Notes under the pieces: model-generated | The model's database searches: none | What the model was told of the DNA's origin: nothing | The model's input: only the letters and a program-made list of their open reading frames with translations | In this document: one piece after another, positions 45,324 to 48,912 of the stretch | Position numbering within the stretch: position 1 is the first letter of the stretch | How the letters are laid out: each line of letters begins with the position of its first letter | Assembly: GCF_024022995.1 (NCBI RefSeq) | Contig: NZ_CP099582.1 | Span: 1 to 64,000 of the forward strand | Source: Thermococcus aggregans | GTDB taxonomy: Archaea; Methanobacteriota_B; Thermococci; Thermococcales; Thermococcaceae | Direction: 5' to 3' | Length of the DNA stretch: 64,000 nt | Program-made: the position numbers and the translations under genes

Positions 45324-45470
45324 TTAAGGTTGCTGTTTTGAGAGAATTTTAACTTCCCTCCGCAGGGTAGAAGCATGCTTTTCTTCAAGGACTCTTTCGT
45401 CAACTACAGAAACAAGAGTTAAATTGCCCAATAAAGCGTAGTTTTTCAAACTTAAAAGAAACCTAAACAC
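45324..45470 (-). CDS. Possible 48-residue protein at the end of the fluoride operon
   Basis: A GTG at 45470, 11 bases after the DUF190 stop, opens a frame ending in TAA at 45324-45326. It encodes a hydrophobic start (VFRFLLSLKNYALLGNLTLV) and a charged end (DERVLEEKHASTLRREVK). No family recognised and no clear binding site; it could be a decayed gene. Reported as tentative. Confidence 0.25.
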   Translation of the reverse strand: MFRFLLSLKNYALLGNLTLVSVVDERVLEEKHASTLRREVKILSKQQP

Positions 45471-45480
45471 TGACTTAAAC

Positions 45481-45861
45481 TCATTCTTCCCTTACGGCAT
45501 CTTCTTCGAACTTTTTCATCTCTTCTCTCGTGCCAACCCAAACCACTATAACCGGCTCAACCGTTATCATACCGTCCTTTATCATGGGCTTTATTTCGTT
45601 TATAGCTTTCTCTATCATGTGTCCCCTATCAACTGCCTCAATTATTATGGGCAAGTCCGTAGAAAGCCTCAAAACATCGCTTGAGTGAACTCTGCTCTTT
45701 TTTCCAAATCCATAGATGCCCCTATAAACAGTAGCTCCTGCAAGTCCCATTTCCCTCAGTTTTTCGACTATAGCCTTATACAGCGGTCTTCCGTGCCAAG
45801 TATCGTTTTCCCCTATGTAAATTTTCATCCTCAATGTATTCCAGTGCTCGATTTCTACCAT
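45481..45861 (-). CDS. DUF190 protein associated with CrcB
   Basis: 127-residue ferredoxin-like-fold protein of the DUF190/UPF0166 family, related to PII-type proteins: [40 protein letters not shown] and [18 protein letters not shown] are diagnostic. DUF190 genes are often next to crcB and under fluoride riboswitches. A role in fluoride resistance or regulation of the channel is inferred from this. ATG 45861 has GGAGGTGAG upstream and lies five bases after crcB. Confidence 0.9.
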
Positions 45862-45865
45862 AAGC

Positions 45866-46237
45866 TCACCTCCTTGCAAGAAGGAATCCCAAAAATACTA
45901 AGCTTACAGTTATTATAACGTTTGCTGAGATGTTTAGAAGGGCCAAGAAATGCTCCCTTTCACGCAACAGGCTAAAAGTCTCATATGAAAAAGTTGAGAA
46001 CGTGCTTAATCCTCCACAGAATCCAGTACCGAAGAAAGCTCTCCAATTAGAAGAGACCTCGTAACCAAAGAAAATCAAGCCGTAGAGATAGCCAAGCAGA
46101 AAACTTGCTATGCTGTTTACTAAGAGAGTTCCTACAGGAAAGTCTCTGTAAACGGGAAGCAAGCCTGCAATGCTGTAGCGCATTATGGCACCAAGCATTC
46201 CCCCAACGCCAACTGCCAAGAGAACCTTAGTGTTCAT
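45866..46237 (-). CDS. crcB: Fluoride channel CrcB (Fluc)
   Basis: 123-residue four-helix membrane protein that forms antiparallel dimeric F- channels. Family markers: [40 protein letters not shown] (pore Asn), and [19 protein letters not shown] with the Phe box and Na+-site loop. Exports fluoride that enters as HF. It overlaps the preceding gene by 11 bases. Located near the 3' end of a leftward operon whose leader has a fluoride riboswitch at 48817-48878. Confidence 0.96.
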
Positions 46238-46574
46238 TTTTCCTGCCTCCTATTCCCAAGTATTTGTTCACAAGTCGCTTTATCTCTTTTTCAATAGTTT
46301 TTCCTCCTTTTAACTTCCTATCTGCATTGTAACCCATTATCTGCATTGAAATCGCCCGATTAATGTTCCATGCTTCATGTATTTTGTAAATAAGCGAAGC
46401 ATAAAGCGCTCTCAACTTCAACTCATTATTTTCATCAATATGCAAGGGGACTGAGGGAGCTTCAAAACTCTTTCCAGTTAGCTCACTTAGTGCATTTAAA
46501 AGCTTTTTCTGGTCAGTTATTATCTCTTTATATTTCTCATAAAGTATGTGCACATCGCGTTTGAGCTCTTCCAT
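46227..46574 (-). CDS. Hypothetical helical protein in the fluoride operon
   Basis: 115 residues, predicted helical: EELKRDVHILYEKYKEIITD, then ELKLRALYASLIYKIHEAWN and KTIEKEIKRLVNKYLGIGG. No Cys pair, no membrane segment, no recognised family. Overlaps crcB by 11 bases and starts four bases after the end of the interrupted gene upstream. Translational coupling to crcB suggests coordinated expression with fluoride export. Confidence 0.7.
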   Translation of the reverse strand: MEELKRDVHILYEKYKEIITDQKKLLNALSELTGKSFEAPSVPLHIDENNELKLRALYASLIYKIHEAWNINRAISMQIMGYNADRKLKGGKTIEKEIKRLVNKYLGIGGRKNEH

Positions 46575-46578
46575 TATC

Positions 46579-46980
46579 TCACAGCCCCAAATAGTAGCGG
46601 ATGAGCTTTTCTATCGAAGTGTAGTCCCTCTCTTCTTTTCCTAGAATTTTTCTAAGTCTTCTATTCTCAGCTATCAGTCCAGAAAGCTGTATCGCCAGAT
46701 TTTTGTTGTCCGCAGCAACTCCACAAGAGATAAACTTCAAGGTTGCCCATTTTCCCTCAATCTCATAAAGTTTCTACTGGAGCTGGCTAACCTCTTCTTT
46801 AAGATTCTCAATATCCCCCTCAGGCTCTTCTAAAAAGCCTCCTCTTAAAATTATCTTGATGCTTTCTTCCACTCTGAATCCATATTTCTCGCTGTAATGC
46901 CGAATTTTCTTAAACACCTCATCTGGAATATCAAGAACCATCCTTCTCCACCTATTTCCCCCGGTTAAAATGAGTCTCAT
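46579..46980 (-). pseudogene. Coiled-coil/ribbon-helix-helix-like gene interrupted by an in-frame TAG
   Basis: The first part (ATG 46980 or, better, 46941) encodes VLDIPDEVFKKIRHYSEKYG, resembling a ribbon-helix-helix strand and helix, then an acidic segment to SQLQ and a TAG at 46774-46776. The same frame continues for 64 further codons (KLYEIEGKWATLKFISCGVA, LIAENRRLRKILGKEERDYT) to a TGA at 46579-46581, four bases before the next gene starts. The continued frame with normal composition shows a once-intact protein of roughly 120-130 residues. Either a recent nonsense mutation or a sequence error. Confidence 0.65.
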
Positions 46981-47455: not shown

Positions 47456-47919
47456 AGGAGTATTTTTCCAAGCAAAGACTGAATCAGTTCGTAATGTCTT
47501 TTACACAACACTGCCTCCGAATTTTTATAATCCTCAAGAAGTTCATTCAAACGCTCCGCAAATGTTTCCACGATGTCGCGCTCCTTCTCCTTTACGGCCT
47601 TACACAGGTAGCATTCTTTCTCTTCAATCTTCTCCCCATTTCGCAAGCCTTTAAGATATAATGAGAGCATATGTTCATATATCACAGCTACTCCGAGTCC
47701 TCCATAAAGCGGATTTGAGTATGCAATCTCTTTCAGCCTCCATGCGTGATATGGGCAAAGACCAAGGCTCTCTGCAAATTTTTCTCTAACGAAGGGATCG
47801 TTTACATGCTCATAGAGAATAGTTTCTATAGAGCTCTTTTCATACTTATCCAATAAGTAGCATACAGGACAACCGGCTCTATCAAGGGCTTCTTTGAGGT
47901 ATACCCCTATAATGTCCAT
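47452..47919 (-). CDS. DUF6062-like Cys-rich protein in the fluoride operon
   Basis: 155-residue soluble protein with two CxxC-type pairs and more Cys: AGCPVCYLLDKYEKSS, LGLCPYHAWRLKEI, KECYLCKAVKEKER and AVLCKRHYEL. The spacing of two CxxC halves each followed by a Cys-x-x-His (CPYHAW and CKRHYE) looks like a duplicated metal-binding unit, as in the DUF6062 family. A zinc or Fe-S site is likely. Function unknown. It starts 21 bases after the prenyltransferase-like gene. Confidence 0.7.
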   Translation of the reverse strand: MDIIGVYLKEALDRAGCPVCYLLDKYEKSSIETILYEHVNDPFVREKFAESLGLCPYHAWRLKEIAYSNPLYGGLGVAVIYEHMLSLYLKGLRNGEKIEEKECYLCKAVKEKERDIVETFAERLNELLEDYKNSEAVLCKRHYELIQSLLGKILL

Positions 47920-47940
47920 TAGCTCCGCCTCTAAAAATAA

Positions 47941-48786
47941 TTAAAAGCTTAGAAGGTCGTCAAGTGCCCTCAAGCCTCTGTAGGTGTTCTGGAAGTTTGA
48001 TATTCCCATTTCAAGACTCCTTCTAAAGCCCCCATTGGGGTTTTGAAGAGCTCTTATAAAGTTTATATGCTCCTTCACATACCGCGGCTTCTCACCGAGT
48101 AGTTTTAACCCCCTCAATGCATAAAACGTTGGCTCTAGGTAGGGCGGGAGGGAATAAGGCACCTCTGTGAAGCCACCGTAAGCCTCACATCTATGAAAGT
48201 GGCTTGTTTTGGGTGTTTTGTAATCTAGAGAATTAAGTGCAAATATTGCCTGATAAGTCATAGTGGTTATAGCTTGCTTTACTCCATAACCATCACCCTT
48301 TCTAAAGCTTTCAATGAACTCTCTTATTTTCTCTTTTTCTTCTGGAGAGATTTTGTGATCTACTGCCTTGAACGCTCTAAGCACCCAGTAAGTTGCCTCA
48401 AGTGGAGTTGCAGTTCCAAATTCTTCGCTTCCTCCAAGACCCACAGCGAACTTGCCCTCAAGGGGCCTATATTTTTCAAAGACCAATGAAAGGCCTTCTT
48501 CTGCGAGGTCTTTTGCCCCTAGAATCGCTAACCCTTCAATTGCCATAGATATTGCAACAACTGCTTGTTGGGGCTTTAATGAGGTATAGAGAAATTCTAT
48601 TGTTTTTTCTCGCTCTGGAACTTCCATGCCTAGGAGGTCGTAGATTTTAACCGCATAGTATGTGTCATTTATGTTTGTCTCATTTAAGAGGGAAACAAAG
48701 CAGTAACCTCCATCTTCATGTCTCCTCTCCTCAACATATCTCAAAACTGCTCTAAGGTTTATATAATTCTCTAGCTTCGAGCCCAT
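47941..48786 (-). CDS. Prenyltransferase/squalene-cyclase-fold protein, first gene after the fluoride riboswitch
   Basis: 281 residues of alpha/alpha-barrel repeats like those of protein prenyltransferase beta subunits and terpene cyclases. Gly-Gly-Phe/Tyr turns are seen in RRHEDGGYCFVSLLNETNIN, GKFAVGLGGSEEFGT, CEAYGGFTEVPYSLPP and ALQNPNGGFRRSLEMG. I see neither the DxDD motif of squalene cyclases nor a clear Asp/Cys/His zinc set, so enzymatic activity is open. ATG 48786 has GGGAGGCGG upstream; the upstream GTG at 48801 would start inside that site. First gene behind the riboswitch, hence expected to be fluoride-induced. Confidence 0.7.
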   Translation of the reverse strand: MGSKLENYINLRAVLRYVEERRHEDGGYCFVSLLNETNINDTYYAVKIYDLLGMEVPEREKTIEFLYTSLKPQQAVVAISMAIEGLAILGAKDLAEEGLSLVFEKYRPLEGKFAVGLGGSEEFGTATPLEATYWVLRAFKAVDHKISPEEKEKIREFIESFRKGDGYGVKQAITTMTYQAIFALNSLDYKTPKTSHFHRCEAYGGFTEVPYSLPPYLEPTFYALRGLKLLGEKPRYVKEHINFIRALQNPNGGFRRSLEMGISNFQNTYRGLRALDDLLSF

Positions 48787-48816
48787 TCTACCGCCTCCCA
48801 AGCTTTTAGCGGAGAA
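48787..48816 (-). promoter_or_regulatory. Expression platform of the fluoride riboswitch
   Basis: Directly 3' of the aptamer, CTCC (within TTCTCCGC) can pair with GGAG in the ribosome binding site GGGAGGCGG. Aptamer folding could keep the CTCC strand away and free the site, giving fluoride-induced translation of the first gene. This mechanism is inference from complementarity. Confidence 0.45.
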
Positions 48817-48878
48817 CAGGCGTCATCAGCCCTTAACGGGCGGTTTGGGCTCGAAGCCCCGGGCGGACGCCATCGCCC
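48817..48878 (-). ncRNA. Fluoride riboswitch (crcB RNA) aptamer
   Basis: Minus-strand sequence begins GGGCGATGGCGTCCGCCC, has a GGGCTTCGAGCCC insertion hairpin, then AAACCGCCCGTTAAGGGC and ends TGATGACGCCTG. These are the conserved blocks of the crcB motif: the 5' GGCGAUG strand, the long-range stem GCGTC/GACGC, the second stem GCCC/GGGC with its AAAC entry and the GCUGAUG...CCU 3' strand, as in the structurally known Thermotoga aptamer. It is strikingly GC-rich against its AT-rich surroundings. The leftward operon it precedes contains crcB and DUF190. Confidence 0.93.
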
Positions 48879-48894
48879 AGAGGTGAATTCTTAG

Positions 48895-48912
48895 GTAATT
48901 TTATAAGCTTTT
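48895..48912 (-). promoter_or_regulatory. Promoter of the fluoride operon
   Basis: On the minus strand AAAGCTTATAAAATTACC contains a strong TATA box (CTTATAAAAT, 48898-48907). A start about 25 bases downstream would fall at roughly 48877, so the aptamer begins at the very 5' end of the transcript. Confidence 0.65.

Follow-up and report, generated by a model that had tools for sequence, protein, structure and literature searches.

A fluoride riboswitch of the Thermococcaceae and its probable translational control of an adjacent alpha/alpha-toroid protein gene

Which gene does a fluoride riboswitch serve when the gene for the fluoride exporter CrcB is not the first one behind it? The question is raised by a locus of the archaeon Thermococcus aggregans, located in the 64,000 nucleotides analyzed here (assembly GCF_024022995.1, contig NZ_CP099582.1, positions 1 to 64,000 of the forward strand; hereafter the window). 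A riboswitch aptamer on the minus strand is followed, in tight packing, by genes for a 281-aa PF00432 protein, a protein matching DUF6062, a coiled-coil protein, small helical proteins, CrcB, and DUF190 (Table 1). The evidence presented below points to a fluoride-activated translational ON riboswitch, whose conserved client is probably the first gene, encoding an alpha/alpha-toroid protein (in the following the toroid protein and toroid gene). A further-reaching proposal is put forward more tentatively, namely that this archaeal fluoride riboswitch pairs its own variable hairpin with codons 1-5 of the gene, and that its universal client is an unrecognised toroid-fold fluoride-response protein acting beside or instead of CrcB.

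A covariance search with RF01734 detected the aptamer at 50.4 bits (gathering score 34, E 5e-11). The full model (1-64) was matched, with the conserved blocks and both pseudoknot strands present, which bears out the claim of an earlier reading made from the letters and their open reading frames (ORFs; hereafter the sequence-only reading) that all blocks of the crcB/fluoride RNA lie at 48817-48878. No second RF01734 match was found in the 1.89-Mb T. aggregans genome, making this aptamer the sole copy. The promoter-like element ~25-35 nt 5' of the aptamer reached 16.0 with a position weight matrix (PWM) derived from leaders of the same riboswitch family; maxima in shuffled sequences had a median of 11.1 and a 95% value of 15.8. 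The riboswitch itself is ordinary and already known in Thermococcaceae, including its unusual position. In T. kodakarensis, the crcB RNA is reported upstream of TK0513 (PMC4247193), and PMC8241225 cites a fluoride-responsive riboswitch of the same species that was tested by experiment (Speed et al., 2018). The statement of the sequence-only reading that no description was known is thus superseded. The T. kodakarensis aptamer is the same, and genome G024 carries the same first gene (organism names attached to such genome handles, T. kodakarensis for G024 and P. yayanosii for G012, are inferred labels).

The constancy of this first gene was surveyed in 94 Thermococcaceae genomes by reading the DNA 3' of 101 aptamer sites; gene contents were counted within about 8 kb of the aptamer, and some contigs end early. 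The aptamer is present in 88 of the 94 genomes, and in all 88, which span six genera, an aptamer is followed directly by the toroid gene, with or without crcB nearby, the start of the gene lying ~13-45 nt downstream. CrcB-DUF190 are found at 72 of these 88 loci, the DUF6062 gene at 56, the small helical gene at 53, and the coiled-coil gene at 48; most species of the window's genus harbor only toroid-crcB-DUF190, without the middle cassette. In Pyrococcus, the sole riboswitch is the one before the toroid gene; crcB, where found, lies elsewhere without one. Co-loss supports the toroid gene as client as well: in genome G080, the riboswitch is lost and the toroid gene broken, with crcB retained. 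Since the toroid gene stands behind an aptamer in every riboswitch-bearing genome while crcB and the cassette are variable, the toroid protein is the best-supported fluoride-regulated product of the operon. The sequence-only reading had proposed all genes upstream of crcB as candidate fluoride-response proteins, provided that a single transcript covers them, and had suggested a co-occurrence check in Thermococcales; for the first gene the proposal stands, but it is weak for the middle genes, which are optional and of which two are broken in the window. The toroid gene of the G080 locus (L190) is degenerate and carries unrelated N-terminal sequence in frame; DUF190 is truncated there and crcB intact. 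Toroid genes broken by a frameshift or stop despite a kept riboswitch occur at L034 (G076), L110 (G069), and L111 (G070).

A possible route from the aptamer to this gene lies in its first codons. The start region of the toroid gene (GGAGGCGGTAGAATGGGCTCGAAGCT) is near-invariant at the DNA level, and its GGGCTCGAAGC is complementary to the aptamer's variable hairpin. Insert and start region share 11-15 continuous base pairs in 74 of 87 leaders, compared to a mean of 2.9 and a maximum of 9 in 200 synonymous re-draws (codons 2-6 resampled from the gene's own synonymous usage), so that the complementarity to a leader element is beyond chance, as start-codon sequestration demands. Codon 2 is GGC in 83/83 cases (background 35%) and codon 3 TCG in 80/84 (background 12%); these two codons show the lowest synonymous entropy of 92 conserved columns. 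Insert and start motif are found together in 75 leaders, the insert without the motif in 0, the motif without the insert in 6, and neither in 7 (Fisher p 3e-7, relatedness ignored). The helix between both (start helix) is contained in the minimum free energy (MFE) structure of the window leader at 37 C (z -4.3) as well as in the 85 C fold of 74/87 leaders, and 96% of its cells are paired versus 10-54% when it is slid. A second helix, formed by CGCCU of the 3' pseudoknot strand and AGGCG of the Shine-Dalgarno region (SD helix), is present in the RNAalifold consensus and accompanies the start helix in the window's 85 C MFE structure (-13.2 kcal/mol, compared to -7.0 kcal/mol for a free start site).

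A translational OFF/ON switch is suggested by the arrangement of these two nested helices, which should not be able to coexist with the fluoride-bound pseudoknot and the local hairpin. In the proposed OFF state, with fluoride absent, the start codon and codons 2-5 would be paired to the 3' half of the variable hairpin and the Shine-Dalgarno sequence to the 3' pseudoknot strand of the aptamer, so that the ribosome could not start. With fluoride, the pseudoknot would take the GACGCC strand, the insert would refold on itself, and the start site would be released. Downstream genes, crcB among them, would benefit only to the extent that they are cotranscribed with the first gene and that their expression hinges on its translation. 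The analysis establishes the aptamer, its linkage to the gene, the complementarity, and the conservation of the latter at the RNA level; the order of switching, its direction (ON), and a possible role of the toroid protein in fluoride tolerance are deduced from these. Bacterial fluoride riboswitches that employ terminators overlapping the aptamer (PMC2864571) resemble this scheme in that a ligand-stabilised pseudoknot is expected to turn genes on. Unlike them, the control proposed here is translational and uses the gene's own codons 2-5, and no terminator-like element was seen in the window leader.

Several observations weigh against this model. In G012 (inferred P. yayanosii; L189), most of the aptamer is deleted, with the toroid gene intact and its start motif kept; crcB was not found in this genome, and the toroid gene is possibly expressed constitutively. 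A search for paired changes in the start helix yielded 0 pairs changed on both sides and only one-sided changes of the G-U type, so that conservation of the helix rests on constraint and G-U changes, not on covariation. The default RNAalifold consensus, which has the SD helix, omits the start helix. Moreover, 13 leaders fall short of 11 bp and six have the start motif without the canonical insert, hence the start helix is not indispensable. The persistence of GGGCTCGAAGC in these six leaders and in G012, together with the lack of compensatory changes, would also fit a start region held by some other RNA or DNA constraint (an RNA-binding factor, a translation enhancer, or the N-terminal peptide MGSKL), with the complementarity being secondary. 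This explanation is considered unlikely, because the constraint is synonymous and therefore not peptide-driven, and because the insert, despite its location outside the fluoride-binding core, is conserved alongside the start motif and never kept without it. It is also conceivable, though rather doubtful, that control is operon-wide, in which case a single transcript would include crcB and DUF190, the exporter would be the real client, and the toroid gene would merely stand in front. CrcB-DUF190 do follow at the 72 loci mentioned above, often separated from the toroid gene by ~10 nt. Through polarity, as reported for Thermococcus, distal expression can drop when translation of a leading gene is repressed. 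However, the proposed platform masks the first start codon only, Pyrococcus maintains the riboswitch at the toroid gene with crcB elsewhere, and crcB may be served by promoters of its own. A strong TATA-like site inside the gene preceding crcB in the window (at 46507) outscores the aptamer promoter (19.6 vs 16.0), but could be a chance match in AT-rich coding sequence. For T. kodakarensis, a separate start site of TK0514 (crcB) between TK0513 and TK0514 is given in PMC4247193, in agreement with a TATA-like site at -70 found with the PWM. In view of both sites, the single transcript entertained in the sequence-only reading is unproven.

If translation of the toroid gene is the regulated step, the nature of its product becomes the next point to be weighed. 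AlphaFold2 (predicted local distance difference test 90.2, predicted template modeling score 0.89) and Foldseek assign it the alpha/alpha toroid of a protein prenyltransferase beta subunit; the best match is RabGGTase beta (template modeling score 0.73), and squalene-hopene cyclases are also among the nearest solved folds. GGF/TY-type repeats are shared with these PF00432 enzymes, the GG- and TY-motif loops being the most conserved parts of the toroid protein. Fold and PF00432 match could speak for a genuine protein prenyltransferase beta subunit or class II terpene cyclase, yet this is very improbable: identity amounts to only about 15-17%, and in 30 relatives the zinc-ligand motif DG[CS][YF] occurs in 0 and DxC in 1 (by a motif test that is not structure-based), while the class II terpene cyclase motif DxDD occurs in 0. 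At the motif position of the FTase zinc Cys, T is found in all five repeats (aligned by motif, not by structure). A canonical enzyme of either kind is thus unsupported by motifs. In contrast to the PF00432 enzymes, the toroid protein was found only in Thermococcaceae, with no relatives in 21 other genomes of the phylum or in a stringent pattern search of genome contigs, and therefore offers no neighbor clue to its function. Its position and conservation suggest a small-molecule enzyme or binding protein that would be made upon fluoride entry. Regarding the DUF6062, coiled-coil, and helical genes, the chances appear about even that they are operon bystanders without a role in the fluoride response. 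Judged by its distribution, the cassette is old (several genera) but optional; it is missing from most other loci of the window's genus, its order and content vary, and its damage in the window would also fit dispensable passengers. On the other hand, the same genes follow the aptamer in the same order in several genera, and in Pyrococcus two of them follow the toroid gene even where crcB is absent, so that a long-term linkage exists.

Comparison with relatives also revises the composition of the locus. The sequence-only reading had listed an eight-gene operon, in which the ORF 47455-47225 was counted as a gene of its own. This ORF, which aligns to the C-terminal end of the family model, is the C-terminal portion of the DUF6062 gene; both parts form one continuous ORF in every relative where both were found and are split in the window only, which is one base short at about 47466 compared to locus L032. 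The small protein correctly listed as interrupted is a single gene, 46980-46579, whose TAG (46776-46774) corresponds to CAG in L032; of the relatives in which both halves are present, only the frame-split G003 lacks a continuous ORF. Recoding of the UAG at 46776 was rejected as unnecessary, given the open frame of relatives and the CAG of L032. Because two entries of the eight-gene list are each only half of a broken gene, that operon is rejected; by this comparison, the ancestral set comprises seven genes, of which two are broken in the window. The tight packing and the assignments of the prenyltransferase-fold protein, DUF6062, CrcB, and DUF190 were retained. An assembly error may be the source of the lesions. 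Relative to L032, the coiled-coil gene additionally shows a 48-nt gap at 47040, and ~510 bp of the DUF835 gene are gone, which is full-length in G080.

The first DUF6062 ORF exceeds the Pfam cut-off (47 bits versus 27; 2.8e-12) and thus belongs to the family even though the T. aggregans gene is frameshifted; full-length relatives match PF19538 at 3e-19 and better. In relatives, eight invariant Cys/His in two CxxC..CxxH sets suggest two metal sites; in the window, both sets lie in the first ORF, 5' of the frameshift. The confidently predicted structure is all-helical; no fold match to this model was found in the PDB, and a literature search found no paper naming DUF6062. The small helical protein (46980-46579) possibly combines a ribbon-helix-helix-like N-terminus, read by eye only, with a coiled-coil C-terminus. 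No Pfam family matched the 115-aa helical protein. CrcB (Fluc) and DUF190 constitute an ordinary pair of adjacent partner genes, which here does not come first and in Pyrococcus lies apart from the riboswitch.

Relatives harbor further variants of the riboswitch. At 13 Thermococcus loci (L067, L088, L090, L094, L095, L098, L101, L103, L106, L109, L124, L126, and L128), a second aptamer is found in front of an NADH-dehydrogenase-1/hydrogenase membrane-subunit operon (PF00146); an association of the fluoride riboswitch with formate hydrogenlyase is known (PMC2864571). All 13 second copies carry GGAGGTGACGCC at the ribosome-binding site, another copy of the pseudoknot strand GACGCC, which from its sequence could compete for GGCGUC. 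Just upstream of the second riboswitch, several Thermococcus (e.g. L101) encode a paralogue-like relative of the small helical protein (...LAIKLAGYIAENRLL...). Only Pyrococcus (L045-L051, L120) displays a conserved hairpin with the k-turn-like core ATGAGCCGAAACCGGCAACGGGAGTAGG or close variants between promoter and aptamer, directly 5' of the latter.

Table 1. Features of the riboswitch locus and of the remaining window, with coordinates in the window (BRE, B recognition element; sRNA, small RNA)
Feature	Position	Strand	Support or remark
BRE/TATA-like promoter AAAAGCTTATAAAATT	48897..48912	-	PWM
Fluoride riboswitch aptamer (crcB motif)	48810..48886	-	RF01734
Pseudoknot strands GGCGUC/GACGCC	48871-48866 and 48824-48819	-	
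GGCUUCGAGCCCA, 3' part of the variable hairpin and complement of the start-codon region	48846..48858	-	13 continuous pairs with 48785-48773
CGCCU of the 3' pseudoknot strand, candidate anti-Shine-Dalgarno	48818..48822	-	pairs with AGGCG 48796-48792
Shine-Dalgarno region GGGAGGCGG	48791..48799	-	most leaders read GGAGG[C/T]G
UGGGCUCGAAGCU at the start codon (within AUG and codons 2-5), partner strand in the proposed OFF helix	48773..48785	-	
Alpha/alpha-toroid (prenyltransferase-fold) protein, 281 aa, first gene after the aptamer	47941..48786	-	PF00432, 1.8e-12
DUF6062 gene with twin CxxC..CxxH sites, frameshifted near 47466	47225..47919	-	ORFs 47919-47452 and 47455-47225
Coiled-coil gene, 85 aa	46977..47234	-	relatives mostly 99-116 aa
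Small helical gene, in-frame TAG at 46776-46774	46579..46980	-	halves 46980-46774 and 46773-46579
Possible internal promoter of crcB, TATA-like site AAAAGCTTTTAAATGC within the 115-aa gene	46492..46507	-	PWM 19.6
Helical protein, 115 aa, overlapping crcB	46227..46574	-	homologues in G074, g5, and a few other genomes
CrcB (Fluc) fluoride exporter	45866..46237	-	PF02537, 3e-28; TIGR00494 over cut-off
DUF190 (COG1993)	45481..45861	-	PF02641, 8e-39
DUF835 gene remnant, mostly deleted	45324..45470	-	PF05763, C-terminal match
C/D box sRNA elsewhere in the window	14611-14555	-	RF00095, 49.9 bits

The odd position of the crcB RNA before TK0513 is remarked upon in PMC4247193, whose available text proposes neither a client nor a mechanism, whereas a constant client over six genera and a start-codon helix are described here; nothing further on TK0513 was found in the literature. 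No description of the start-codon helix, the universal toroid target, or the broken genes was found in a search that left aside Speed et al. (2018) and Baker et al. (2012); with the former outside the search, priority for the mechanism is uncertain. As far as checked, three points are new: the toroid gene as universal client, the synonymously constrained start-codon helix, and the two broken genes. If the proposed control holds true, it would account for an archaeal crcB RNA that precedes TK0513 instead of crcB, and would offer a specific way in which an archaeal riboswitch acts on translation, one that synonymous codon swaps could test. It would also call for caution when such leaders are used as expression tools, as the first codons would belong to the switch. 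Above all, the toroid protein would be a fluoride-response protein outside the known set of exporters and fluoride-inhibited enzymes, open to knockout in the genetically tractable Thermococcus.

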